Shown here: positions 4,080 through 19,413 of the stretch, one piece after another
Layout of the letters: every line of letters starts with the position of its first letter
How positions within the stretch are numbered: position 1 is the first letter of the stretch
Assembly: GCA_012838865.1 (NCBI GenBank)
Contig: DUOK01000175.1
Span: 1 to 47,406 of the forward strand
Length of the DNA stretch: 47,406 nucleotides
Direction of reading: 5' to 3'
Source of the DNA: Bacteroidales bacterium
GTDB taxonomy: Bacteria; Bacteroidota; Bacteroidia; Bacteroidales; Marinilabiliaceae
Translations under genes and position numbers: made by a program
Notes under the pieces: model-generated
Seen by the model: the letters and a program-made list of their open reading frames with translations, nothing else
Databases searched by the model: none
Told to the model about the DNA's origin: nothing

Positions 4080-4322
4080 ATGACCAGCGAAGAAAAAAAG
4101 CAGAGCGATAAAAAAGCAAGCACCATCTGGAAACTGGGATGGGGCTGGTACCTGGCGGCGCCCCTGCTGGGGCTCCTTGCACTGGCCGCCGGCAAGGGCG
4201 TCAACGACACCCTGGCCGCACCACCCCGATCGGCCCTCGACATATTAAAAGAGCGCTATGCCAAAGGCGAAATCGACCGTTCCGAATTTGAAGAAAAGAA
4301 AAACGACCTGCTTTCGATTTAA
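4080..4322 (+). CDS. Small membrane protein with C-terminal SHOCT-like domain
   Basis: One TM segment followed by ALDILKERYAKGEIDRSEFEEKKNDL, typical SHOCT motif. Confidence 0.75.
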   Translation: MTSEEKKQSDKKASTIWKLGWGWYLAAPLLGLLALAAGKGVNDTLAAPPRSALDILKERYAKGEIDRSEFEEKKNDLLSI

Positions 4323-4328
4323 TGTCGT

Positions 4329-5231
4329 CTAAAACACATTTTTTGTCCCGTTAAAGTTCATGCGAAACTCGCTGGGCGTGCACTTTTGCTTCTTCTTAAA
4401 AGTGCGGTTAAAATTGGAAATATTGTTGAACCCACATTCGTAACAAATTTCCGAAACCGTCTTATTGCTTTCAATCAACAGCCGCGTGGCATAACCCAGG
4501 CGCATCTCATTCACAAATTCGATAAAAGATTTGCCCGTTCGCTGCTTAATGAGGCGACTGAAAGAGACCACCGACATATTCAGCAAACCAGCCGCCTCTT
4601 CCAGCAAAATTTTTTTACTGAAATTGGCCCGCACATAGTTGTAAATCTTCTCGATGCGCTCACTGTTGTGAAAATCGTTGCTGTGCTGGAACGATAAATT
4701 CGTGAGCAAACGCTGACCGCGCGAAGTAGCCAGGTCGTACAACAGCGACTGAAACTCAATAAAGGAGTCAAAGCCCCGTTTCTGACTCAGCGAAGTCAAA
4801 CGCCCCTCTATTTGCCGGGCCGTTTCCTTAGAGAACGAAAGGCCGCGCTGGGCATTATTCAACAAATCCCTGATGGGTTTCAGCATATTTTTAGCAATCA
4901 GCGACTCCCCAAAAATATCTCGCGGAAATTGAATGGTAATTTCATGCAGCAAAACCTTACCCGTATTTCTGAAGTTTTCCCAACCGTGGTAAAGGTTGGG
5001 GCCCACCATCACCAACTCATAATCATCAATCTCCTCAATCGAGTCGCCCACCACCCGGCGCGCCCCCCGCGCATTGGCAATAAAATTAATTTCGTACTCG
5101 GGGTGAAAATGAATGGGATAAGTAAAAAGGGAGCGTTGACGATCAAAGACCAAAAAACAATCGTCCTCATTCAGCGGGGTAATCTCCCGGTGAATCGAAT
5201 CCCGAACCGGCGTCATCACAACATCTTGCAT
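4329..5231 (-). CDS. AraC-family transcriptional regulator (N-terminal cupin, C-terminal double HTH)
   Basis: FHPEYEINFI cupin; C-term KKILLEEAAGLLNMSVVSFSRLIKQRTGKSFIEFVNEMRLGYATRLL...CGFNNISNFNRTFKKKQKCTPSEFR. Start moved to the internal ATG at 5231 (ORF extends to 5300). Confidence 0.9.
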   Translation of the reverse strand: MQDVVMTPVRDSIHREITPLNEDDCFLVFDRQRSLFTYPIHFHPEYEINFIANARGARRVVGDSIEEIDDYELVMVGPNLYHGWENFRNTGKVLLHEITIQFPRDIFGESLIAKNMLKPIRDLLNNAQRGLSFSKETARQIEGRLTSLSQKRGFDSFIEFQSLLYDLATSRGQRLLTNLSFQHSNDFHNSERIEKIYNYVRANFSKKILLEEAAGLLNMSVVSFSRLIKQRTGKSFIEFVNEMRLGYATRLLIESNKTVSEICYECGFNNISNFNRTFKKKQKCTPSEFRMNFNGTKNVF

Positions 5232-5479
5232 AGCACAACAGATTAAAAGGCAACAAATTTTAACAAAAATACATAAAATCAGATACAATAATACTACCAC
5301 CCCTTAAAAAAAATCATCCAAACAAATCGCAATAAATCGCACAGAACAGCAAACTCAGACCACAACTACAATAATAAACACACATTAATCCTCCAAAACA
5401 GCCTTAATAAAAGTGAAAAACGACATTATTCTACCATCGTGTACAAACGGCCCCACCAACAACATTTTCACTAAAAGCT

Positions 5480-5509
5480 TTTGCAGTAGTGAAAAAGCAG
5501 CTATCTTTG
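5480..5509 (+). promoter_or_regulatory. Bacteroidota-type promoter for rpsP (TTTG N18 TATCTTTG)
   Basis: TTTG at 5480-5483 and TAnnTTTG (TATCTTTG) at 5502-5509, about 45 nt upstream of the start codon. Confidence 0.7.
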
Positions 5510-5553
5510 CAGTCGCTAAAAAAGTAGGTTGTATTAATTGAAATTTATTTAAC

Positions 5554-6111
5554 ATGCCCGTAAAAATTAGATTAACAAGACACGGACGCAAAAGGTATGC
5601 TTACTACCACATTGTGGTAGCTGACAGCAGGGCGCCACGAGATGGCAGGTACATTGAAAGGATTGGTTCTTACAATCCCAACACGAATCCTGCTACCATT
5701 GACCTTAATGTTGATAAAGCCTTAACATGGCTTGGCCAGGGCGCCCAACCTACCGACACTGCCCGTGCAATTTTGAGCTACAAAGGTGTTATGATGAAGA
5801 AGCACCTGCTCGAAGGCGTAAAAAAAGGAGCTTTTGACGAAGCCGAAGCAGAGCGTCGTTTCAACAAGTGGATGGAGGAAAAAGAAGCCAAGATCCAGGA
5901 GAAGAAAGACCAGCTGGCGGGACAAAAAGCAATGAGCAAAAAAGAGCGTTTGGAACAAGAAGCAAAAATCAACGCCGAAAGAGCCGAGAAAATTGCCAAG
6001 AAAAACGCTGAGCTGGCTGCCGAAGCCGAAGCTGCCAATGCTGAAGCCACTGAAGAGGCTCCAGAAGAAGCCGCTGAAGAAGGTGCAGCAGAAGAACCGC
6101 AGGCTGAATAG
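5554..6111 (+). CDS. rpsP: 30S ribosomal protein S16 with Ala/Glu/Lys-rich C-terminal extension
   Basis: [42 protein letters not shown]; low-complexity acidic/basic tail. Confidence 0.96.
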
Positions 6112-6140
6112 CAAGGCCCAGTCATTCTTCATAAAATTTA

Positions 6141-6172
6141 AAAACCCGTCTGGCCAACAGACGGGTTTTTTT
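6141..6172 (+). terminator. Intrinsic terminator between rpsP and rimM
   Basis: AAAACCCGTCTG / CAGACGGGTTTT, 12-bp perfect stem, loop GCCAA, T-tract. Confidence 0.85.
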
Positions 6173-6188
6173 ATACATTTATGCCGTT

Positions 6189-6722
6189 ATGATCGACAAA
6201 GACCAACAAATACATTTGGGCCAGGTGGCCAAACCACACGGCGTGGACGGAGAAGTGCTCATACGCATGCTTGCCCAATGGGAGAACTATGAACCCGCTC
6301 CTGATTTTATTTTTCTGGAGCTTCTTGGGGGACTGGTCCCCTTTGAAGTAAAAGCCTTGCGCTACCGACACAGCCACGACCTACTGGTGCAGCTCGACCG
6401 CATCAGCGATCAGGAACAAGCCAGGCAGCTGCAAGGCACTGCGGTTTATATCGCAGCGGAAGATTTGGGCGAAGCACCTCAGGAAGAAAAACGCTCCCTG
6501 AATCTCCTCACCGGCTTTCAGGTAAGCGAGCAGCGCCGCGGCAGTCTGGGTAAAATTCAAGCCGTGATCGAGATTCAAAACAATCCCCTGATAGAGCTGC
6601 TCATCAACGAAAAAGAGGTACTCATTCCCCTGCAGGAAGACTTCATTGTCCACATCGACTGGAAAAAACGCGAACTCACCATGCAGCTGCCTGAGGGACT
6701 CATAGAGCTGTACCTGGAATAA
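6189..6722 (+). CDS. rimM: Ribosome maturation factor RimM
   Basis: IHLGQVAKPHGVDGEVLI N-terminus, PRC-barrel C-terminus, adjacent to rpsP. Confidence 0.92.
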   Translation: MIDKDQQIHLGQVAKPHGVDGEVLIRMLAQWENYEPAPDFIFLELLGGLVPFEVKALRYRHSHDLLVQLDRISDQEQARQLQGTAVYIAAEDLGEAPQEEKRSLNLLTGFQVSEQRRGSLGKIQAVIEIQNNPLIELLINEKEVLIPLQEDFIVHIDWKKRELTMQLPEGLIELYLE

Positions 6723-7143
6723 GTCGCCCCTTCTCCATACGATCAAAAGCCCTGCGCCAGTCGTCCGGAATAAGCATCCCCGACTGGCTGGCCTGGTCGT
6801 AGCCCGCCATCACCGAATCACAGGTCGCCGTGGGTTCCGCATCCCCCTCCTTCACCAGCCACTGGAGCATGCGCAGACTCTTCCCGCCCAGGTGATACAC
6901 TCGCGTGAGCACCCGCACCTGATCATCGGGCAGGGTTTGCTTAAAAAAATCGGTTTTAATGGAAACGATCAGCACCACCTTATCGTTCTTCCACAGCTCC
7001 CCGCCAAAAGCCTCCCGCAGGTAGTGCACCCGGCCAATATCAAAATACTCCTGAATAATGGTATTGTTCACGTGCCCAAAACCATCCACATCGTTAAAGC
7101 GAATTTGAATGGGCGTAGCGTGATAGAACTCTTCCAGAGCCAT
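6700..7143 (-). CDS. Acyl-CoA thioesterase, hotdog fold (4-hydroxybenzoyl-CoA thioesterase-like)
   Basis: IQIRFNDVDGFGHVNNTIIQEYFDIGRVHYL motif. Confidence 0.85.
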   Translation of the reverse strand: MALEEFYHATPIQIRFNDVDGFGHVNNTIIQEYFDIGRVHYLREAFGGELWKNDKVVLIVSIKTDFFKQTLPDDQVRVLTRVYHLGGKSLRMLQWLVKEGDAEPTATCDSVMAGYDQASQSGMLIPDDWRRAFDRMEKGRLIPGTAL

Positions 7144-7153
7144 AAGTAAAAAA

Positions 7154-7960
7154 TTATACCGCTACACCAAAATCGCGCAGCGCGTCGTTCAACGAAGTTT
7201 TTAAATCGGTAGAAGCCTTCCGCTGTCCTATTATCAGCGCCGCAGGCACCTGGTAAGCACCAGCCGGAAACTGCTTGGTATAACTGCCCGGAATCACCAC
7301 CGAACGTGGCGGCACAAAACCTTTGTACTCCACAGGCTCGCTCCCGCTCACATCAATGATCTTGGTGGAACCGGTAAGCACCACATTGGCACCCAAAACG
7401 GCCTCCTTACCAATGCGGCAACCCTCTACCACAATGCAACGCGACCCAATAAAAGCCCCGTCCTCCACAATGACCGGTGCCGCCTGCAGGGGTTCCAGCA
7501 CCCCACCCAGTCCAACACCACCACTCAGGTGTACGTGCTTGCCCACCTGAGCACAACTGCCTACCGTGGCCCAGGTATCCACCATGGTGCCCTCATCCAC
7601 ATAGGCGCCAATGTTCAAATAAGAGGGCATCATCACCTCTCCGCGAGCCACATAGGCACCATAACGTGCCACAGCATGAGGCACCACGCGTACGCCCAAT
7701 TCCTTATAATTCCGTTTCAAGGCCATTTTATCGTGAAACTCAAAGGGACCCAATTCAATCGTTTCCATTTTTTGCATGGGAAAATACAAGATCACCGCCT
7801 TCTTTACCCACTCGTTGACCTGCCACTGGTCGCCCACCGGCTCAGCCACCCTCAAAACGCCCCGGTCCAGTTCATCAATGACCTTACGAATGGCCTCCCG
7901 GGTTTCCTCCTTGTCCAATAGGGAGCGGTCGTCCCATGCTGCTTCAATTACTTTTTGCAT
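7154..7960 (-). CDS. dapD: 2,3,4,5-tetrahydropyridine-2,6-dicarboxylate N-succinyltransferase
   Basis: Left-handed beta-helix: MMPSYLNIGAYVDEGTMVDTWATVGSCAQVGKHVHLSGGVGLGGVLEPLQAAPVIVEDGAFIGSRCIVVEG. Confidence 0.96.
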   Translation of the reverse strand: MQKVIEAAWDDRSLLDKEETREAIRKVIDELDRGVLRVAEPVGDQWQVNEWVKKAVILYFPMQKMETIELGPFEFHDKMALKRNYKELGVRVVPHAVARYGAYVARGEVMMPSYLNIGAYVDEGTMVDTWATVGSCAQVGKHVHLSGGVGLGGVLEPLQAAPVIVEDGAFIGSRCIVVEGCRIGKEAVLGANVVLTGSTKIIDVSGSEPVEYKGFVPPRSVVIPGSYTKQFPAGAYQVPAALIIGQRKASTDLKTSLNDALRDFGVAV

Positions 7961-8103
7961 AAAATTTAAAGGTTTGGTTCAACACTTAGATTTAGAAAAA
8001 ACAGGTTTGGTTCCTGTAAAAATAAGGGAAGCGGGTGGGAATTACCGGAAAAAAAACAACAGTTGTTGGAATTTTTATAATTTTAACAGCCAAGAACCCG
8101 AAC

Positions 8104-11100
8104 ATGTACCACTACAGAACCTTTATTGCCCTTATACTAATCGGACTCTTTGTGCCTGTGAGCGCTTGGGCGCAGACGCACCTTTTTCATCCGGTAGAAC
8201 AGCCTCTGTCGAACAGTTATGTACGCTGTATATATAAAGACAGTAAGGGTTACCTCTGGGCAGGCACCTTTAACGGACTCAATCGCTACGATGGAGCCGG
8301 CATACAGACCTATCATCACGAAGCCGGCAAAACCAACACCCTCAGTCACAACATGGTCAATGCCTTGCTCGAGGACCATCAGCAAACCCTGTGGGTAGGG
8401 ACTTCCGAAGGACTGAATTACTACGACCGGGAAAAGGATGCCTTCCACTACATCATACATCGGCCCGACCTGGAAAACCGACACAACAACAGCTGCATTA
8501 CCGCCCTTTGTCAACCCGACACCACGACCCTTTGGATGGGAACCCGCGGCGGCGGGGTGAACATTTACCGCTACGCCGAAAAACGCTTTGACTTCCTCTT
8601 CCTAACGGCCTCCAAGTTGCTGGACGAAGCCAGCAACCACATCACCTGTCTGCAACAACACCACAACACCATATGGGCAGGAACAGCGGGGGGACTGTTC
8701 CGGATCAACCGGGAGACCCTGGTGGTGAGTCCTGTTCAACACCCCCTACTCGCCCGGACCAATATCAACGCCCTGGCCCTCCGGGGAGACAGTCTGTGGG
8801 TCGCCACTCCCGAAGCACTCTATCTGGCCGTTCTTAGTGAAAACACCCCCGCAGTCTTTGCTCCGGTAAAGCAAGTGCCGCAACAAAACATCAGCGTATT
8901 GCATCCCCATCAAAATGGAGCAGAATTGTGGTTGGGCTATGAAAATGGGGGACTGGGCTGTTACCGCCCCGCAGACCAAACCTTCAGCCACTACCACCAC
9001 CAGCCGGGCCTACGCAACGGTCTGCCCGACAACACCATTTGGAGTCTGCACAGCGACGAGGCCGGACGCCTGTGGGTGGGGACCTACAAGCAGGGTTTGC
9101 ACCTGCACGATCCTTATTACGACAAGTTCCTGAATTTTGAACACAATCCCTACGACCCCCTCTCGCTGAGTCACAATAACGTGCGAGCTTTTGCCGAAGA
9201 TCCGGAAGGTCGCCTCTACGTAGCGACCGACGGAGGCGGTCTCTCCCTCTTTGTACCCCATGCGCAGGAGGCATACAGCGGGCAAGCCCTGCCCGACCAC
9301 CTCCAAAATCTGCCCACACAAGCCCTAACCACCCTATTGTACAGCAAGCAGCACCAACTTTGGGCAGGCACCTGGGGAAGTGGCCTTGTACAAATCGATC
9401 TCGACAAAAAGACAAGAAAAATCCATCCTCTTTCCCCAACGAACTCAGCAGCGAACAGACTCTTCAGTCTCTATGAAGACAGGGCGGAAAACATCTGGGC
9501 GGGAACGGCCGGTGAGGGCTTGTACGTAAAAAAGAAGAACAGCCCCCATTTTCAAAAAGCCGGGAAAAGTTTCGAGGGACTCGAACTGCCCGAAGACGCC
9601 TTCATCACCTTCATCTTTGAGGACCAGGGCAAGGACTTGTGGATAGGCTCCCTCTATGGACTGTTTCGCTTCCACCGGCAAAACGGAAGCATCATCCAAA
9701 AATCGGTCTATTACAAAGAACTCTCCGGCAAAGGACTGGAAAGCAACTCTTTTCAGTGTGTACACCAGGATGCCCGGGGACGCATCTGGCTGGGAACCTT
9801 CGACCGGGGCGTGGCCCGCTACCATCCCGAAACCGATCGCTTCACCCACATCCATACCGAGCATGGTCTCGCCGGCAATATGATTCAGGCTATCTTGTCG
9901 GACCAGGACGGGCAGCTCTGGATAAGCAGTGAGCAGGGACTCAGCTGCTGGGATCCCGAAAGGTCGACTTGCATCAACTACAGCGAAGCCGATGGCCTTT
10001 TAACCAAAAACTTTCAAGGCAACGCCGCACTGAGCTTAAATAAGGGCTCACTTCTTTTCGGAACCACGGAGGGTTTTCACCTGATTGATCCAAAACGTCT
10101 GCCCAAAAACCCCCACAGCGGAGCTCCCCAAATCACCGCCCTCCACCTCCTTACCCGCAGCGCCGAAGCAGACAGCAGCTCAAGCTGGTCACCCCTTCAT
10201 AACAAGCAGACCCTTAAGCTGTCTCACCAACAAAACAGTTTCACCCTGACCTTTACCGCACTCAACTACACCCGTCCCGAAAACAATCGCTACCGCTATA
10301 AAATGGATGGCTGGGACCCGCAATGGAACGAAAGCAAAAACCCGGAAGTGAACTACCACAACCTCTCCCCCGGCCGCTATACCTTTCTGCTGCAAGCAGC
10401 CAACAACGACGGCATCTGGAGCGAAAACACCGCCCAGGTAAACCTGAGCATTCAACCGCCCCTTTGGCGCAGCTGGGCCCTTCTGCCCCTCTACCTCCTG
10501 CTGGCCGGATCCATTGTTTATCTCTTGATTGTACTCCGCTTACGCCGCCTGCAACTTCTCCACAATTATCAAAACAATAAGGCCCATTTACAAGTCTACG
10601 AAAAATGGTCCCATGAGCTGCGCACCGCTTTAAGCCTCATTGCGGCACCCTCCGAAAAATTACTGGACCAGCCCGCCCTTTCGCCTGAAATCCGGGCCGA
10701 ATTGCAGCGCCTGCGCAAAAACACCCTACAGCTCAGCAACTTGTCGCAAAAACTCTTGCTGCAGAAAGCCGACATCTCCCAAAACCCTGCGCCCGAAGCA
10801 AGCCCTCCCAGGCCAGACACCCTCCAGGCTCAGGACGAGCACCCCATAGAAAACGAAGCGCGCCACGAGATTTTGTTGATCGAAGACAACGAAGAATTAC
10901 TTGATTTTCTGGACCGTGAACTCCGCCGCCAATACACCATTTACAAAGCAGTAAATGGCGAAGAAGGCTTGCAAATGGCCCTGGAGAAATTGCCCGACCT
11001 GGTCGTCAGCGATGTGATGATGCCCGGCATGTCGGGGACCACCCTTTGCGCTCAGTTGAAAAAGGACCTGAGCACCTGTCACATCCCCATTTTGTTGCTC

Positions 11101-11625
11101 ACCGCCAAAGCCAGCGACCAGGACCAGGCAGAAGGCTTGCTCACAGGCGCCGACGCCTACATCACCAAGCCCTTTAGTATGAAAGTATTGCTGGCGCAAA
11201 TACAGCAACTTATTCAAAACCGTCAGCAACTCTACCACACCTTCCGCCAAAGCGGCTATTTGCTTCCCAGTCGCAACAAAAGCCAAAAAAGCGACGAAAA
11301 CTTCCTAAGCCAAATCGTTGCGCTCATTCGGGGGGACCTGTCCAACACCAACCTCAATGTAGAAGCCCTGGCCGAAAAGACCGAACTCTCGCGCACCCAG
11401 CTGTACAAAAAAATTAAAGCCCTAACAGGCTTGTCCGCAGTAGAATTTATCCGGGAAGTCCGACTGAAAGAAGCCGTGCTGCTCATGGAAGAAGGCGATC
11501 TCAGTCTCACAGAAGTCGCCTACCAAAGCGGTTTCAACTCTCCATCCTACTTCTCCAGAAGTTTTAAAGAGTATTATGGCTTCAGCCCCTCAGAACTGAC
11601 GCATAAAAAGATGCGAAAAGAGTAG
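8104..11625 (+). CDS. HTCS-type regulator: signal peptide, Reg_prop beta-propeller, Y_Y_Y, TM, degenerate HisKA, receiver, AraC HTH; no HATPase domain
   Basis: Repeated LWVGT / WAGT propeller motifs; ENNRYRYKMDGWDPQW..SPGRYTFLLQAANNDG Y_Y_Y; SHELRTALSLI H-box; VVSDVMMPG and ITKPF receiver; AraC C-terminus. Start placed at MYHYRTFIALILIGLFVPVSAWAQ (ORF opens at 8035). Confidence 0.93.
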   Translation: MYHYRTFIALILIGLFVPVSAWAQTHLFHPVEQPLSNSYVRCIYKDSKGYLWAGTFNGLNRYDGAGIQTYHHEAGKTNTLSHNMVNALLEDHQQTLWVGTSEGLNYYDREKDAFHYIIHRPDLENRHNNSCITALCQPDTTTLWMGTRGGGVNIYRYAEKRFDFLFLTASKLLDEASNHITCLQQHHNTIWAGTAGGLFRINRETLVVSPVQHPLLARTNINALALRGDSLWVATPEALYLAVLSENTPAVFAPVKQVPQQNISVLHPHQNGAELWLGYENGGLGCYRPADQTFSHYHHQPGLRNGLPDNTIWSLHSDEAGRLWVGTYKQGLHLHDPYYDKFLNFEHNPYDPLSLSHNNVRAFAEDPEGRLYVATDGGGLSLFVPHAQEAYSGQALPDHLQNLPTQALTTLLYSKQHQLWAGTWGSGLVQIDLDKKTRKIHPLSPTNSAANRLFSLYEDRAENIWAGTAGEGLYVKKKNSPHFQKAGKSFEGLELPEDAFITFIFEDQGKDLWIGSLYGLFRFHRQNGSIIQKSVYYKELSGKGLESNSFQCVHQDARGRIWLGTFDRGVARYHPETDRFTHIHTEHGLAGNMIQAILSDQDGQLWISSEQGLSCWDPERSTCINYSEADGLLTKNFQGNAALSLNKGSLLFGTTEGFHLIDPKRLPKNPHSGAPQITALHLLTRSAEADSSSSWSPLHNKQTLKLSHQQNSFTLTFTALNYTRPENNRYRYKMDGWDPQWNESKNPEVNYHNLSPGRYTFLLQAANNDGIWSENTAQVNLSIQPPLWRSWALLPLYLLLAGSIVYLLIVLRLRRLQLLHNYQNNKAHLQVYEKWSHELRTALSLIAAPSEKLLDQPALSPEIRAELQRLRKNTLQLSNLSQKLLLQKADISQNPAPEASPPRPDTLQAQDEHPIENEARHEILLIEDNEELLDFLDRELRRQYTIYKAVNGEEGLQMALEKLPDLVVSDVMMPGMSGTTLCAQLKKDLSTCHIPILLLTAKASDQDQAEGLLTGADAYITKPFSMKVLLAQIQQLIQNRQQLYHTFRQSGYLLPSRNKSQKSDENFLSQIVALIRGDLSNTNLNVEALAEKTELSRTQLYKKIKALTGLSAVEFIREVRLKEAVLLMEEGDLSLTEVAYQSGFNSPSYFSRSFKEYYGFSPSELTHKKMRKE

Positions 11626-11839: not shown

Positions 11840-13381
11840 CTATTTTTCCACAAGGTTCTTCACCTGAGCAAAGAGAAAAGCCTCTCCCTCCTGGGGAAAA
11901 ACCCGAACATTCTTCATCTGCAGACCATCCACCTCCATAAACTCGGCGCCATAGCGGGCAGAAATCGTCACATTCTCCAAATTGATGTTTGAGATGGGCA
12001 TCTCGGGCAAACCATGAAAATACATCGCCCTGCGCGCATTGACCGAAGTCACATTTTTAAAGGAGAGGTTCCTGAACATCGGCGTTTCCTCAGTAACAGG
12101 CAACAAATCTCTTTCAGCAACTGCACCATCTTCCCCTGCAGCCAGGGCTTCACTGGCCGACTTTCCACCATAGTAAAGATTAAAGCGAAAAGAGTCGGTG
12201 GAAATATCGTGCATACTTACATTCTCCACAAAGATGTTTTCGACAACGCCACCTCGTCCTCGGCGACTCTTGAAGCGTAAACCCACATCGGTGCCCAAAA
12301 AAGAACAAGAGCGTACCAAAATATTACGTACCCCGCCAGACATTTCACTGCCCACCACAAAGCCTCCGTGCCCGCGATAAACCACACAATTCTCCACAAT
12401 TACATTTTCTGTGACACGTGCCCTGCGCCGCCCATCCTCGTCCTTTCCTGATTTGATGCAAATGCCGTCGTCGCCCACATCAAAGGAGCTGTTTACCACC
12501 AGGGCGTTGCGACAAGATTCCAAATCCAAACCGTCGCCGTTCTGTGCGTAAGAGGGATTGCGTACCTGAATGCCGTCAATAATAACATTCTCACACATCA
12601 AGGGATGCAAATTCCACGAAGGCGAATTACTAAAAATCACCCCCTGCAAAAAAACATTCTTACATGCTATAAAACTGACCATGACCGGCCGTAAAAAATC
12701 TTTTACCGCCAGCCATTCTTCCTCAGTAGTCAGATGCTGCGGCACATTCATATTGCTGATGGTATCGCCGTGAAGCGCCCCGGCGGAAGGAAACCAATAG
12801 TTGTCGCGCTTAAAAACTCCTCCACGGGACACAAAGCTGCGCCACTGACTTTCGGTCACCTTATCCCGCTTAACCGGTCGCCACTCGTCCCCTGCCCCAT
12901 CAATGGCGCCATGACCCACAATGGCAATATTCTCCAACTGTCTTCCAGAAATGGGCGACTGACAGCGCCGGGTGTCGAGTCCCTCAAAAACAGTTTCCAC
13001 CAGAGGGTACAGGGACTTGTCGCGACTGAATAGAATCACTGCACCCTTTTCGAGGTACAAGCGGATATTGCTCCGAAACACAATGGGTCCGGTATGCCAC
13101 ACGCCGGCAGGCACATAAAGCGTTCCGCCGCCCTGCCCGGCCAACTCTTGCATAGCGCGTTCAAAAGCCTGGGTATTTAAAAACTGTCCATCCCCCTTTC
13201 CACCTGCATCTCTCAAATCCACCTGCCGATCGGGAAAAGTCGGCGGCACCAAAACCTCCATCTCAAAAGGCAAATCCTCAAAATAAACCGCATAAGGCGA
13301 ACGCTCCTCCCCGCCACAAGCAACCAACAACAGCGACAGCGTCGCACCAACAAAAATCATCCTAAGGCTCATATTCCCCAT
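11840..13381 (-). CDS. Glycoside hydrolase family 28-like (polygalacturonase-type) lipoprotein
   Basis: Lipobox LLLVACG; beta-helix; GH28-like motifs NGDGLDLES, VGDDGICIKSG, GHGGFVVGSE, LRFKSRRG. Confidence 0.9.
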   Translation of the reverse strand: MGNMSLRMIFVGATLSLLLVACGGEERSPYAVYFEDLPFEMEVLVPPTFPDRQVDLRDAGGKGDGQFLNTQAFERAMQELAGQGGGTLYVPAGVWHTGPIVFRSNIRLYLEKGAVILFSRDKSLYPLVETVFEGLDTRRCQSPISGRQLENIAIVGHGAIDGAGDEWRPVKRDKVTESQWRSFVSRGGVFKRDNYWFPSAGALHGDTISNMNVPQHLTTEEEWLAVKDFLRPVMVSFIACKNVFLQGVIFSNSPSWNLHPLMCENVIIDGIQVRNPSYAQNGDGLDLESCRNALVVNSSFDVGDDGICIKSGKDEDGRRRARVTENVIVENCVVYRGHGGFVVGSEMSGGVRNILVRSCSFLGTDVGLRFKSRRGRGGVVENIFVENVSMHDISTDSFRFNLYYGGKSASEALAAGEDGAVAERDLLPVTEETPMFRNLSFKNVTSVNARRAMYFHGLPEMPISNINLENVTISARYGAEFMEVDGLQMKNVRVFPQEGEAFLFAQVKNLVEK

Positions 13382-13456
13382 TTTAGCAATTAATTATTTC
13401 CCCAACTCCAGACAGCCCATAATAAATGGACCGTTGGCCTCGGCAACCACCAAAAC

Positions 13457-16400
13457 CTATTGCACCAGAGTAAGTCCAAGCAATCCAATAAGCACTTCAT
13501 TAGCCACGGCCTCCAGTTCCAGCGCCTCCAGTTCACGTGAGGCGTCAAGAGGGAGATCCAGGATAAGGCCCGCCCCGCCATCAATGCTGCGACCATAAAC
13601 CTCATCCGGGTCAATAGCCATCAGAGCCTCCATATTACGTGACACCTCCCCGGTTTTTAAAGCAACCCGGTAAGGGCGGGGGAAGGGACTGTAAAAGGCA
13701 TGCTCGTCCAGGAAAAGGTCCTGCTCAATGGGCAACCAGTTGTTGGGATTGATCAATTCCAGCACTTCCTCCCCGCCATCCTTGTACTTCACGCGTATGC
13801 GACCGTTTACCAAATGGCTCTGCATATGATTGGTAGAGCCCGCCATCAGCAAATAAACATGCTGTGCATGACCTTCCAAAGGGATTTGTGCGCGCTCAGG
13901 ATAATTGTCCCATTGCGAAACAAACAACACATTGGGTGCCACACTATCCCCCGCTACAGAAAAGGCCAGCCCCATAGGCGTTTCAAAAACACCCTCTTTT
14001 ACAGCAGAACGAAGACCGCTGTCGTCAATATCTGCGCTCAGTTTTGGGTGACACCATTCCCCAATACCCTGAACAGGAATTTGCAGGGTGGTAAATGGCG
14101 ACCGGGGGGAAAGGTATTGCTCATCAAAAATGGAGGACAGCGAGGCATTCACCCCATCCTTGATAGACACCAGTCGCTGTTCACGTTGGGGAGCCTCCAA
14201 ATTCCATAAAGACAAATCCTCTTGAAACAGTGCTTCATCGCCGACACGCAACTCGATGCGGTTACTGCCCAAAAAAACTTTTTCTTTGGGCACTTGCAGA
14301 GACTGCGACCAGCTGTCGGGAGCCAGTTCCAATCTGGTCGACCAGGCATAAGGACCGGGATTCACGACAACTTCCATGTCGACTGCGCTGCGCCCCTGAT
14401 TCTTTATGCGAAAACTCAGCTGTTCGGCTTCCACCTCTGTTTCCAGGGCAAAGGGGTGCATCAACTCCAGGTGCAGGGGTTGCCACCACAGCGCACTGCC
14501 CTCGCGCAATTGAACAAACAGGGTTTTTGCACCAACCGGCCCCTGCGTCCGGCCTGTCAACACCCCATCCTCGAAACGCACATGGCTCAGCGCACCTTGC
14601 GGGTCCTTCACAGCCTTAATTTCTGCCGCTAAGTCGACCTGCAGTTCCTCACCCGAAACCATCGCCAACTCTTTTACATCCAACTGATTTCCCCACAACT
14701 TGTCCCACGCCACAACAAGCTCAAGCTCCTCTTCCATAGGCAGCTCCAGAACAAGATAGGCCTGTCCAAGCCCTTCCTCCATCTGCCAGGAGTGGGAGCG
14801 CCCATTTACCCTGACGGAACGTACCCCGGGACCCAGCGCCCTTAATTTTAACTCCAGGGTGTCGGCTGCATCCATACGACAATGAAAAGTATAAAGACTC
14901 CGAAGCCCCTCCTGACGGTAACTGAAATCCAGATACGACGCGGAAAAAGACGCGTGTTCCCAAGCTGCAGGAAAGCCGGGACGGATGACCAGTCGACGGT
15001 TCAACAAGTCCGGTTGGATGCCATAAAGCCCCTCAACCAGGGCCCTGGAATACATCCCAACAGGATCACCAAAATCGCGGTAACACTCCCCTCTGGCCGC
15101 ATCGTAAAAACTGATTTGACCGATGTTGCCGGGACTGCTGCCCAGGTACATACCATCCAGCAAAATACTCTTGAACAACTTTGCAGCCACATCGCTTCGC
15201 CCGCTTTGCCAATAAGCCAGCGCAGTATGTGCCACCTCGGCAAAAGCTACATTGTTGACCGACCAGGAATAGGGAAACCAGTTGGTGGTAGAAAGCGTGT
15301 AATAACCCTCATCAGGCAAACCCTTGGCCCTTATCGGAATATGTGGAATCTGTGTATCGATGTAACGCGTAGCCTGATAAGCCTGAAAAGGCGTATGGAC
15401 CTCCGAGTCTATGGCATGATAAATGGTCCACAAGCCCGGCTTATCGTGCACCAGGCCCAAGCCCATATAGTCCTGAAACTCGGCCCAATGGCCCTCTCCC
15501 TCCAACCACAGCCGCTGGTTAAGCGCTTCCAGAATACGTTCCGCCTCCTTTTGATAGGGGCCGGGATCTTCTCCAATTTTTTGAGCCACCAGGGCCACCA
15601 AACGATTGGCCCTATAGTTATAGGCCGAGGTGTAGGTCACCGCTCCACTGTTGTAATACAAAGCATCACTCGCCCAAATGGCCGCACAGGCATCGTAAAG
15701 ACCATCGTTGTCGGGATCATAATTGCGCTTCTCCCATTCGAGATGCGCCTTTAATACCGGCCATACTTCCCGTGCATAAGACAAATCTCCCGTCCAGTTT
15801 AAATGCCACAAAAGCGCATCGATGTACACCAGATTCATATTGTAATGGTGCATTTGGTTGGGATTTTCGGGATTGCGTGCAATGTAGCCATTGGAGTACA
15901 TTTGTGTACCCCATTGTTTGAGTGGACGCGCCAAATTCAGGGCAGAATCGGGGGTGGCATGCGGCAAAACCGGCTCAAGCGCTGTGACCTGCGAAGCGGC
16001 ATAACGACTGAAATGTCGTCGGTTTCGCTCACTCCATCCAATAAAATCACCCGTGTAAGCGGCCCGCCAGCCATTAAGCGGCATACGCCACCCAATGGCC
16101 CCGTGCAACCACACATCTTCCCAAAGCCCATCAGCAGCTGCAGTCAAGGCCCCACCCAGGGTGTTAAAATAAGGATCGGGGGTTTCCACCTTTAAAGCAC
16201 TGCCCAGCAGCTTACTCCGCTCCAAAGCCTGGGCAAAGACCTCATCCAAATCCTTGTCCGCCAAAGCACTTGCCCCTTCCACATTCTGCAAGGCAAAAAA
16301 GTGCGTAAAGTCGCCCGACACCTGCCACTGTGCACCTAAAACAGGCTTCGCCTCCTCGACCTGAGAAGCCCAAAATTCAGCAGGACTGCCTAAGTCATAA

Positions 16401-17083
16401 GGCGAAAGCAAGCGTAGGGTGGCGGGGGGACTAAAACGGCCTTCGACCCGGGTCGGATTGCGGGTCTCCTGACCGTAATCCAAAATAAAACCGCCTTTCG
16501 TCAGACTGTAATCGTTGTTGCGACAGGCCTCAGCATCCAAATCAAAAGCATTGACCTCATCCACGCCCAAATCGGCATTTCGGTAAAAACGCTTACTGTC
16601 TGCGCCCCCATACATCGTCAACAAACGAGACCCTGCAGGCAAATCCGCTCCGCTCAATTTAACCACAACACCACGGCCTTCAGCCATGGCCAGAACCTCC
16701 AGCTCCAAACGTCCACCCGCTAGAAGTGGATCCTCCACCCGATAGGTCCTGATACCTGCCCGCGATTCCGCACGCACCCAGGAGGCATCTGCCAGCCAAA
16801 GGCTGCCCCTGGAGGTTTCAATCCCCCATTGCAAATGGCCACCCCGATAAGGCATATACAAACCCAGCACAGGCACATCACTGGTCTCCACCCGAAAGGA
16901 AGACCCCGAGGCATACAAAGCCTTATTGTACCTCAACTTTCCGTTTTCAATAACAAAGGATTCCCCCTCAGGCCGGTAGCGCAGTTCACGCTCTGTTCCC
17001 TGCCAAACACCATAAGCACTTTGTGCAAACAGCTCTGTTCCCAGACCAAAAAAAAATCCGACAAAAACAAGTATTTTCAACAT
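13457..17083 (-). CDS. Large secreted (alpha/alpha)6-barrel glycoside hydrolase-like protein with DUF4450-like N-terminal region
   Basis: Signal peptide (MLKILVFVGFFFGLGTELFAQ); central DGLWEDVWLHGAIGWRMPLNGWRAAYTGDFIGWSERNRRHF and YDPDNDGLYDACAAIWASDALYYNSGAVTYTSAYNYRANRLVA resemble (alpha/alpha)6 glycosidases. Confidence 0.75.
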   Translation of the reverse strand: MLKILVFVGFFFGLGTELFAQSAYGVWQGTERELRYRPEGESFVIENGKLRYNKALYASGSSFRVETSDVPVLGLYMPYRGGHLQWGIETSRGSLWLADASWVRAESRAGIRTYRVEDPLLAGGRLELEVLAMAEGRGVVVKLSGADLPAGSRLLTMYGGADSKRFYRNADLGVDEVNAFDLDAEACRNNDYSLTKGGFILDYGQETRNPTRVEGRFSPPATLRLLSPYDLGSPAEFWASQVEEAKPVLGAQWQVSGDFTHFFALQNVEGASALADKDLDEVFAQALERSKLLGSALKVETPDPYFNTLGGALTAAADGLWEDVWLHGAIGWRMPLNGWRAAYTGDFIGWSERNRRHFSRYAASQVTALEPVLPHATPDSALNLARPLKQWGTQMYSNGYIARNPENPNQMHHYNMNLVYIDALLWHLNWTGDLSYAREVWPVLKAHLEWEKRNYDPDNDGLYDACAAIWASDALYYNSGAVTYTSAYNYRANRLVALVAQKIGEDPGPYQKEAERILEALNQRLWLEGEGHWAEFQDYMGLGLVHDKPGLWTIYHAIDSEVHTPFQAYQATRYIDTQIPHIPIRAKGLPDEGYYTLSTTNWFPYSWSVNNVAFAEVAHTALAYWQSGRSDVAAKLFKSILLDGMYLGSSPGNIGQISFYDAARGECYRDFGDPVGMYSRALVEGLYGIQPDLLNRRLVIRPGFPAAWEHASFSASYLDFSYRQEGLRSLYTFHCRMDAADTLELKLRALGPGVRSVRVNGRSHSWQMEEGLGQAYLVLELPMEEELELVVAWDKLWGNQLDVKELAMVSGEELQVDLAAEIKAVKDPQGALSHVRFEDGVLTGRTQGPVGAKTLFVQLREGSALWWQPLHLELMHPFALETEVEAEQLSFRIKNQGRSAVDMEVVVNPGPYAWSTRLELAPDSWSQSLQVPKEKVFLGSNRIELRVGDEALFQEDLSLWNLEAPQREQRLVSIKDGVNASLSSIFDEQYLSPRSPFTTLQIPVQGIGEWCHPKLSADIDDSGLRSAVKEGVFETPMGLAFSVAGDSVAPNVLFVSQWDNYPERAQIPLEGHAQHVYLLMAGSTNHMQSHLVNGRIRVKYKDGGEEVLELINPNNWLPIEQDLFLDEHAFYSPFPRPYRVALKTGEVSRNMEALMAIDPDEVYGRSIDGGAGLILDLPLDASRELEALELEAVANEVLIGLLGLTLVQ

Positions 17084-17104
17084 AAGCTACACATCAACCC
17101 TTCT

Positions 17105-19216
17105 CTAAGGCATTACCATTAAATCTTCCCAAACCACCTTCCAACTCCCGTCATCCGGAAAGCCAGGTGTGGGCAGCTCGTTACCGTCCCAGCCCGCACA
17201 CATCATAGCCACAGCAGTGAGCAAACCCCCATTGCCCGGCAAATAAACCCTTAAGCGCGCATCCTGATAATTGTGCCCGTTAATAAGATAAGTATTGGTA
17301 CGCTTATCCATAAGCAGGGCACCCACCGCCTTCTCACGATCACCCAGGCGGGCCGCATTCATCGCCGTCATAGGATAATCCCACCCCCAGGTCTTACCCC
17401 AATTCCAGTTGTCCCATATCCAGTCGAGGGTGTTCTGCATATAATCGGTACGAATCAAATTATTTTGAGGCAACATACCCATTGCACCGAGCACAGCAGG
17501 GTGGTCTGAAGTAAAACGAATGTCCTTGTAGGTATCCACAGCATCCTCCGAAGCCAGATACAAGCCATCCAACTCCGCCAAAGGCGGCAACTTATCAATA
17601 ATCTCATCCCATTGCACACGACGCGACTTTCCAGCGCGCTCGCGCCATTTCTGAGCCACCGAGAGCCCGTAGTGCCAGTACGACAATTCAAAGGGGGGAT
17701 TGATGGTCTCCACCGCACGCAAAGTTTCCTGGGCAGGAATCACCCCTTGCAAAATATAGCGCCCCTCCATCATATCATAATCTGCAAAAGAAGCCATAAA
17801 TGCCGCCGTTTCCTCCACCAAAAAGCCATACTTTTCAAGCACTTCGGGGGTAGGGGAACTGCGGTAAAGCAGTTCGGCCATATAAATAAAATGCGGCTGC
17901 TGCCAAATCAGGAAGGAGCCCACTCCCGATGGGGCTTCCGTAGCAGAAGGATCCGTCATTTTCATCCATCGACAACCCTTAAAGCCCTGCCGCTCGGCAA
18001 TTTCTTTGGCCATCGGATAGGCCGCTGCGTACCAGTCCATACTCCGCTCCAGCAACTCAGGTCGCCCCCATAGCGCAAAATGCACACCATGCCACCAGTG
18101 CATCTCCAGATGAAACTTACCGTACCAACTGTTGTAGGTCAAACCGGTTTCCTGCGGCGGATACATGCCGGCCGACTGTATGGCCATCAAATACTGCGAC
18201 AACACCACCCGGCGTTCCAGCTCTTTAGCGCCCGCTGCCGTGCTTCCGGAAAAATCAACCGCGCCACCATTCTTCCAAAACTGCTGCCAGTAATCCGAAG
18301 CGTCCGACAAAACCATTTCCACCTCCAGATCCTCCTTAACCGGCTCCTCCACAAATGCACAACTAAAAGAGAAATCTTTCTGTGCAGGCTCCAAAACAAA
18401 ATAATGGGCCTCCTTTTCGCGCAGGGAGGCCTTTCCCTCCCAACTGATCCGCACATAATACACCGCTTCGTCCAGCGTCCGCTTCAACAGCGCACTTTGC
18501 GCATCCTGCTCCACCAGGGTCGTCAGATGCTTCTCAGGAACACTCCAATCAGTAGCATCATCGGCATGCTGCCCACTTGGATAAGGAAAACGAAAAGAAA
18601 TCCCCAGTTCTCCCCGCTCCAGCAAGGGCGAACTCAGCGCAGCCGCCAGCACATCCCGATTGGGATCCACTGCAGTTTTAACCGCCACCGAATCACCATT
18701 CAACACAAAGCGACTGCGAATGGTGCCGTTCCACAAATCCAATTCCTGATGCGGGTCCTGAATGTCCGAAGGCCGCAGGCCCTCAGCCTCAAAACCTACA
18801 TAACCCAAATGCAAGCGATGCGGATTCACCCGAAACCAATTGGCTGCATCCTTTGAGCGTCCGGGTTCACCAAACTGCACAGAATAAGGCTCCGGCTTCC
18901 CCCTGAAATCATAGTCCTTTAAGGTCTCCTCAAAACGAAAGTTCTCCGGATTCGGAAAGCTGTGCCAGCCCCATTGCGACTGCGTACCCAGCGGCATGCC
19001 TTTGGCATAAAAATCCGGAAAAGTCTGCAAACCCGTTGCATCTACGGTCACCGCAAAATTCCCATTGCCTACCGACAAGGCCGACAATTCTTCTACTTCA
19101 GTTACCAGGGGGCTGTTGCGCTTAACCAGTGCATAGCGGTCTATTTTTCCGACCTCCTCTTCCTTACATCCAAAGAATACACCAATCAACAAAACAATTA
19201 AAAACCAGTACTTCAT
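17105..19216 (-). CDS. Lipoprotein, GH65/GH95-like (alpha/alpha)6-barrel glycosidase
   Basis: Lipobox GVFFGC after the internal start MKYWFLIVLLIG (19216; ORF extends to 19336); SVGNGNFAVTVDATGLQTFPDFY, NSWYGKFHLEMHWWHGVHFALWGRPELLERSMDWY, MTAMNAARLGDREKAVGALL. Confidence 0.75.
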   Translation of the reverse strand: MKYWFLIVLLIGVFFGCKEEEVGKIDRYALVKRNSPLVTEVEELSALSVGNGNFAVTVDATGLQTFPDFYAKGMPLGTQSQWGWHSFPNPENFRFEETLKDYDFRGKPEPYSVQFGEPGRSKDAANWFRVNPHRLHLGYVGFEAEGLRPSDIQDPHQELDLWNGTIRSRFVLNGDSVAVKTAVDPNRDVLAAALSSPLLERGELGISFRFPYPSGQHADDATDWSVPEKHLTTLVEQDAQSALLKRTLDEAVYYVRISWEGKASLREKEAHYFVLEPAQKDFSFSCAFVEEPVKEDLEVEMVLSDASDYWQQFWKNGGAVDFSGSTAAGAKELERRVVLSQYLMAIQSAGMYPPQETGLTYNSWYGKFHLEMHWWHGVHFALWGRPELLERSMDWYAAAYPMAKEIAERQGFKGCRWMKMTDPSATEAPSGVGSFLIWQQPHFIYMAELLYRSSPTPEVLEKYGFLVEETAAFMASFADYDMMEGRYILQGVIPAQETLRAVETINPPFELSYWHYGLSVAQKWRERAGKSRRVQWDEIIDKLPPLAELDGLYLASEDAVDTYKDIRFTSDHPAVLGAMGMLPQNNLIRTDYMQNTLDWIWDNWNWGKTWGWDYPMTAMNAARLGDREKAVGALLMDKRTNTYLINGHNYQDARLRVYLPGNGGLLTAVAMMCAGWDGNELPTPGFPDDGSWKVVWEDLMVMP

Positions 19217-19273
19217 AGCTGAAAATTTTTCATTATAACACAAAAGCAATCTTCCTTCACTGCCCCCTTTCAA

Positions 19274-19281
19274 CAAAATTA
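19274..19281 (-). promoter_or_regulatory. Candidate -7 element for the glycosidase operon
   Basis: Reverse-strand TAATTTTG (TAnnTTTG), about 58 nt upstream of the start at 19216; no well-spaced -33 element seen. Confidence 0.4.
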
Positions 19282-19413
19282 ACAATTCTTGCACACAATC
19301 CCTCCAATAGGCAAAATTTGAATATTTATACGCCATATTGGAATTTTCGACAGCAAAACTGCGGATTTAATAAAAAAATGACAGCAAAGCGTATTTTTTT
19401 TTACGATTATGGC

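Follow-up and report, generated by a model that had tools for sequence, protein, structure and literature searches.

The closest described systems to the regulator considered here are Bacteroidota hybrid two-component systems (HTCS). Members such as B. thetaiotaomicron BT4124 and BT4663 combine a Reg_prop sensor, a Y_Y_Y domain, a TM helix, a receiver (REC) with an S/CHIP motif and an AraC HTH that carries Asp/Lys partners, and have carbohydrate-active genes adjacent to them; the regulator is like them in all these respects. In Bacteroides HTCS the contact between REC and HTH is reported to repress DNA binding until the REC is phosphorylated, kinase-REC specificity has been called promiscuous, and the survey by Gao et al. 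required a histidine kinase domain to define an HTCS (PMC11253607). Tethering reportedly insulates HTCS from one another, an insulation put down to the presence of kinase and receiver in one chain. Both degenerate HTCS and histidine pseudokinases are already known. The former are exemplified by BT4236, whose H-box His is Gln (PMC11253607), and the latter by the CA-frameshift form of Corynebacterium glutamicum ChrS, which still promotes output while a paralogous kinase cross-phosphorylates its response regulator (PMC9491836). A search of the open literature found no description of an HTCS without HATPase_c.

The regulator gene is complete and occupies bp 8035..11625 of the + strand of the window (the whole stretch of DNA analysed, a contig of 47,406 nt from a Geofilum bacterium). 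Its reading frame (8035-11622) is open throughout and encodes 1196 aa from GTG, and the likely start is the ATG at 8104 (Met24), which lies directly 5' of a signal-peptide-like stretch, MYHYRTFIALILIGLFVPVSAWAQ. The HTCS layout proposed in a sequence-only reading of this DNA (propeller, Y_Y_Y, TM, H-box, receiver and AraC HTH) is borne out; Pfam finds Reg_prop, Y_Y_Y, Response_reg and HTH_18, with HisKA below threshold. All parts are encoded on the + strand. Seven stretches of Reg_prop propeller repeats form the periplasmic sensor (8185..10239) and are followed by the Y_Y_Y domain (residues 744-806; 10264..10452) and by a TM helix, placed by inspection of an AlphaFold2 model at about residues 814-835 (10474..10539). 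The remnant of the DHp hairpin (10609..10761), recognized from the model and from a HisKA match of 20.2 bits that falls below the curated Pfam cut-off of 26.9, comprises a second helix and the H-box SHELRTALSLI, which begins at residue 859 (nt 10609). The H-box retains the phospho-acceptor His860 (nt 10612-10614) and has Ala865 in place of the usual Pro, as the earlier reading had it. Where HATPase_c is missing, the alignment and the model place a linker (QKADIS...NEARH; 10762..10866); the DHp-receiver gap is as short as was claimed, its exact length being 35 residues rather than about 33. The REC begins at residue 945 (nt 10867; Response_reg residues 946-1056, 10870..11202, 75.5 bits), and its site is intact, with the acidic pair E950/D951, Thr1023 and Tyr1042 in addition to the Asp993 and Lys1045 already picked out in the earlier reading. 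It carries a CHIP motif (residues 1015-1018; 11077..11088), with which the REC would take part in the inhibitory contact to the HTH that is described for HTCS. The likely partners of the motif, Asp1087 and Lys1126, were assigned by their 39-residue spacing, which equals that of BT4124 D1344/K1383. An AraC-type DNA-binding domain (HTH_18, residues 1112-1188; 11368..11598) completes the protein.

No HATPase family is found in this protein by Pfam profile search even at E<=1, and HATPase_c has zero matches anywhere on the contig. The distance from the H-box to TKPF is 185 aa, against a range of 337-380 aa among the HTCS measured in the window's genome and in relatives; relative to ordinary HTCS, some 150-195 residues are lacking between the H-box and the REC. 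Of 24 aligned HTCS cytoplasmic regions, 21 contain HATPase_c, the exceptions being the window protein, its ortholog and a protein of genome G453 (both discussed below). In the AlphaFold2 model (mean pLDDT 79.7) a single helix runs from the TM into the DHp and is followed by the second DHp helix, the linker, the REC and the HTH. No HATPase fold is seen in the model, and the linker, mostly with pLDDT <50, is predicted to be disordered; receivers and response regulators are among the matches listed by Foldseek against the PDB. Profile search and structure prediction thus agree with the claim that the catalytic domain has been lost. The window protein is HTCS-like but lacks one of the features that define an HTCS, HATPase_c, and this absence supports the further claim that it is unable to autophosphorylate alone. 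A frameshift that conceals the domain is ruled out, as had been argued earlier from the space available (about 100 nt); the other two frames are interrupted by stops across 10590-10880, and the contig holds no HATPase_c match. An assembly gap, in which some 400 bp would have been dropped, is likewise ruled out, since Geofilum rhodophaeum HF401, an isolate of another species, shares the loss. HATPase_c as a separate adjacent gene was not found among the neighbouring genes scanned.

The G. rhodophaeum HF401 counterpart (contig NZ_MWUJ01000015.1) is a syntenic ortholog of 1152 aa, flanked as in the window by dapD on one side and a GH28 gene on the other. Profile search finds neither HATPase_c nor HisKA in it, and the alignment shows that the DHp has been deleted in its entirety, phospho-acceptor His included, and that the path from TM to REC is reduced to a short helix and a linker; REC and HTH are kept. 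The two species therefore share the loss but differ in its extent, as the ortholog has deleted the DHp as well. The REC catalytic residues and CHIP-DK are kept in both proteins, which are nearly identical outside one diverged block. Comparison of the two species gives dN and dS of 0.022 and 0.098 for the propeller (sensor dN/dS about 0.22), 0.064 and 0.434 for the REC (about 0.15), and 0 and 0.067 for the HTH, where there is no amino acid change in the 91 codons compared. With frames intact in both species and under purifying selection, the gene is, judged by these substitution rates, maintained; ratios well below 1 and the unchanged HTH suggest that selection preserves a function for which sensor, REC and HTH are all required. 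In the diverged block (residues 800-1074; window 10432-11240) 54 of 179 same-residue codons differ synonymously, compared with 44 of 886 elsewhere (Fisher p = 3.5e-20), and the simplest reading would be that one of the species recombined with a diverged allele here. The loss of HATPase_c probably predates this exchange, since both alleles lack the domain.

Downstream of the regulator, and convergent with it on the - strand, lie genes for a GH28 polygalacturonase-type enzyme (11840-13381), a DUF4450 protein (13457-17083) and a 743-aa protein with no Pfam match (17105-19336). From its adjacency, this cluster (11840..19336) is the likely target of the regulator. A gene that sits between GH28 and DUF4450 in G. 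rhodophaeum (L051:5211-6362) and in Geofilum genome G002 is missing from the window, where a short 3'-end stretch of it remains at 13381-13457; we take it to be of the GH105 type. At E<=1e-70 the regulator is present in 2 of 71 genomes of the family, those of the window and of G. rhodophaeum. In G002 the enzyme cluster adjoins dapD, but a 209-aa reading frame stands at the regulator's expected place. No enzyme cluster lies beside dapD in G001 and G003; ilv genes adjoin dapD in G003 and are one 265-aa frame away from it in G001. Given this patchy presence across Geofilum genomes, the regulator is part of a variable island. In G002 the DUF4450 gene (L105:4495-8150, contig G002:C210) is split into two overlapping frames of 598 and 624 aa in a frameshift-like manner. 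G003 also carries (L147:6421-10105) a second, 5'-truncated dapD together with an AraC gene and the intervening genes, at 98% DNA identity to window 4112-7802. This segment looks like a recent transfer within the genus, because in G003's own dapD region identity to the window reaches only about 72%.

Homologs with the same deletion, for which a search had been suggested, exist beyond Geofilum. The search used a consensus written for the purpose (DHp, short linker and REC) as a junction query against 393 genomes of the order; about nine candidates were scored per genome, so the prevalence it gives is a lower bound. Junction-spanning matches were confirmed as real in the window protein, G453 and G392. 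Matches in G240 and G278 were rejected, as their kinase regions are of ordinary length, and those in G271:C36, G360:C56 and G233:C3 did not pass the motif filter; in a sample of the phylum no further spanning match was found at E<=1e-33. G453, from another family of the order, encodes an HTCS without HATPase_c, and its congener G545 has a counterpart, 56% identical, that lacks the domain as well. The two are 72% identical in the DHp, 77% in the REC and 83% in the HTH, compared with 49% in the sensor and 23% in the linker, a pattern which indicates that the shortened form has been kept with its DHp under constraint. The G392 protein (L139:1523-3730, contig G392:C89) has a Peripla_BP_4 sensor, HisKA, REC and HTH and no HATPase_c. 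The REC is intact in the G453/G545 and G392 proteins in spite of the loss. Since sensors and lineages differ, HATPase_c appears to have been lost at least three times independently (Geofilum, G453/G545 and G392).

How might such a protein work? With a probability of roughly 0.5, we favor the reading that it is an HTCS derivative that still functions, now as a response regulator tethered to the membrane, which receives its phosphoryl group on the REC Asp in trans and whose output is modulated by the propeller. The periplasmic propeller and Y_Y_Y domain would bind a ligand, probably pectin-derived, and binding would set dimer geometry or accessibility. Phosphorylation of the REC Asp by another HTCS, a free histidine kinase or a small phospho-donor would then free the AraC HTH from the CHIP-DK lock, and the freed HTH would activate the adjacent pectin-enzyme genes, its putative target. 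It is the retention of this lock together with the whole REC site that favors trans phosphorylation, as a lock that is kept should need its key; the intact REC after the independent losses in G453/G545 and G392 speaks for it as well. The kept REC residues could instead reflect structure or a REC dimer interface. Phosphoryl donors should exist, given promiscuous specificity and the 43 places in the window genome with HATPase_c above the curated cut-off, many of them HTCS; the neighbouring genes that were scanned include no partner kinase. Insulation by tethering implies that trans phosphorylation may be slow.

The main rival to trans phosphorylation is one-component signaling that is independent of phosphorylation, in which ligand would alter dimer geometry through the membrane and a continuous helix, and hence the REC-HTH arrangement, with the REC serving only as a dimerization and locking module. 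We consider this possible, if somewhat doubtful. The ortholog, which dropped the DHp and now connects TM to REC by so short a path, speaks for it, as does the phosphorylation-independent mechanism that Gao et al. suggested for BT4236 (PMC11253607). BT4236, however, has a non-consensus CSIP-EK, whereas the window protein keeps CHIP-DK and all REC catalytic residues, and a linker predicted to be disordered would make rigid mechanical coupling of TM and REC less likely. The sequence-only reading had left three mechanisms unranked. Of these, the likelier are a partner that acts on the REC Asp and phosphorylation-independent signaling; use of His860 is unlikely as a conserved mechanism in Geofilum, because the ortholog has neither the DHp nor its His.

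That same deletion bears on an arrangement we judge improbable, the pairing of this protein with a complete HTCS by way of Y_Y_Y, TM and DHp. In it, the HATPase_c of the partner would phosphorylate His860, from which the phosphoryl group would move on to the REC of the same chain. Such a heterodimer cannot be the mechanism conserved in Geofilum, and in the window protein itself HisKA is sub-threshold and the H-box Pro is Ala, even though His860 and both DHp helices are still there. The idea keeps its appeal for G453/G545, a lineage of independent origin in which a DHp so much better conserved than sensor and linker is as expected of a working one. CA-truncated ChrS, whose regulator is cross-phosphorylated by the paralog HrrS, is a known precedent, but the ChrS His is not needed and two-hybrid analysis detected no heterodimers with the truncated form (PMC9491836). 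Simple decay, in which the regulator became non-functional after HATPase_c loss and the remainder is eroding, would accord with the stepwise loss (both species lost HATPase_c, one also the DHp), with the fast-changing DHp-linker block and with the loss of the neighbouring, presumably GH105-type gene at the window locus. It is nevertheless very improbable: the frames are open in two species, dN/dS of sensor and REC is well below 1, the HTH has no amino acid change, and the high synonymous divergence of the block points to local recombination and not to relaxed selection alone.

A conserved kinase-less HTCS whose receiver and lock are intact offers a natural way to test whether HTCS can phosphorylate one another, and also how far the sensor alone can drive output. 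More broadly, and tentatively, HTCS may time and again give rise to sensor-response regulators that are tethered to the membrane, have no kinase and are fed with phosphoryl groups by other HTCS of the cell, an arrangement that would integrate two glycan signals at a single promoter; Geofilum would have gone one step further with the loss of the DHp. Surveys that require a histidine kinase domain may overlook HTCS of this kind.

Kinase-less, membrane-bound, carbohydrate-responsive regulators exist in the Bacteroidota as the SusR type, which consists of sensor, TM and HTH only. These have no REC, whereas the window protein keeps an intact one. From BT4124 and BT4663 it differs in the absence of HATPase_c and in its weak DHp, and its ortholog differs further in having no DHp. 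Like BT4236 it is an HTCS-type protein barred from standard His phosphorylation, but there the cause is a point substitution, accompanied by a non-consensus REC-HTH motif (PMC11253607), whereas the window protein lacks an entire domain and keeps the consensus motif. With the ChrS pseudokinase it shares the lack of a working catalytic domain in a histidine kinase; ChrS, in contrast, is laboratory-evolved, has kinase and regulator as separate proteins and is not an HTCS (PMC9491836). Considered as a histidine pseudokinase, the window protein has lost its catalytic domain, and purifying selection suggests that it has kept a function.
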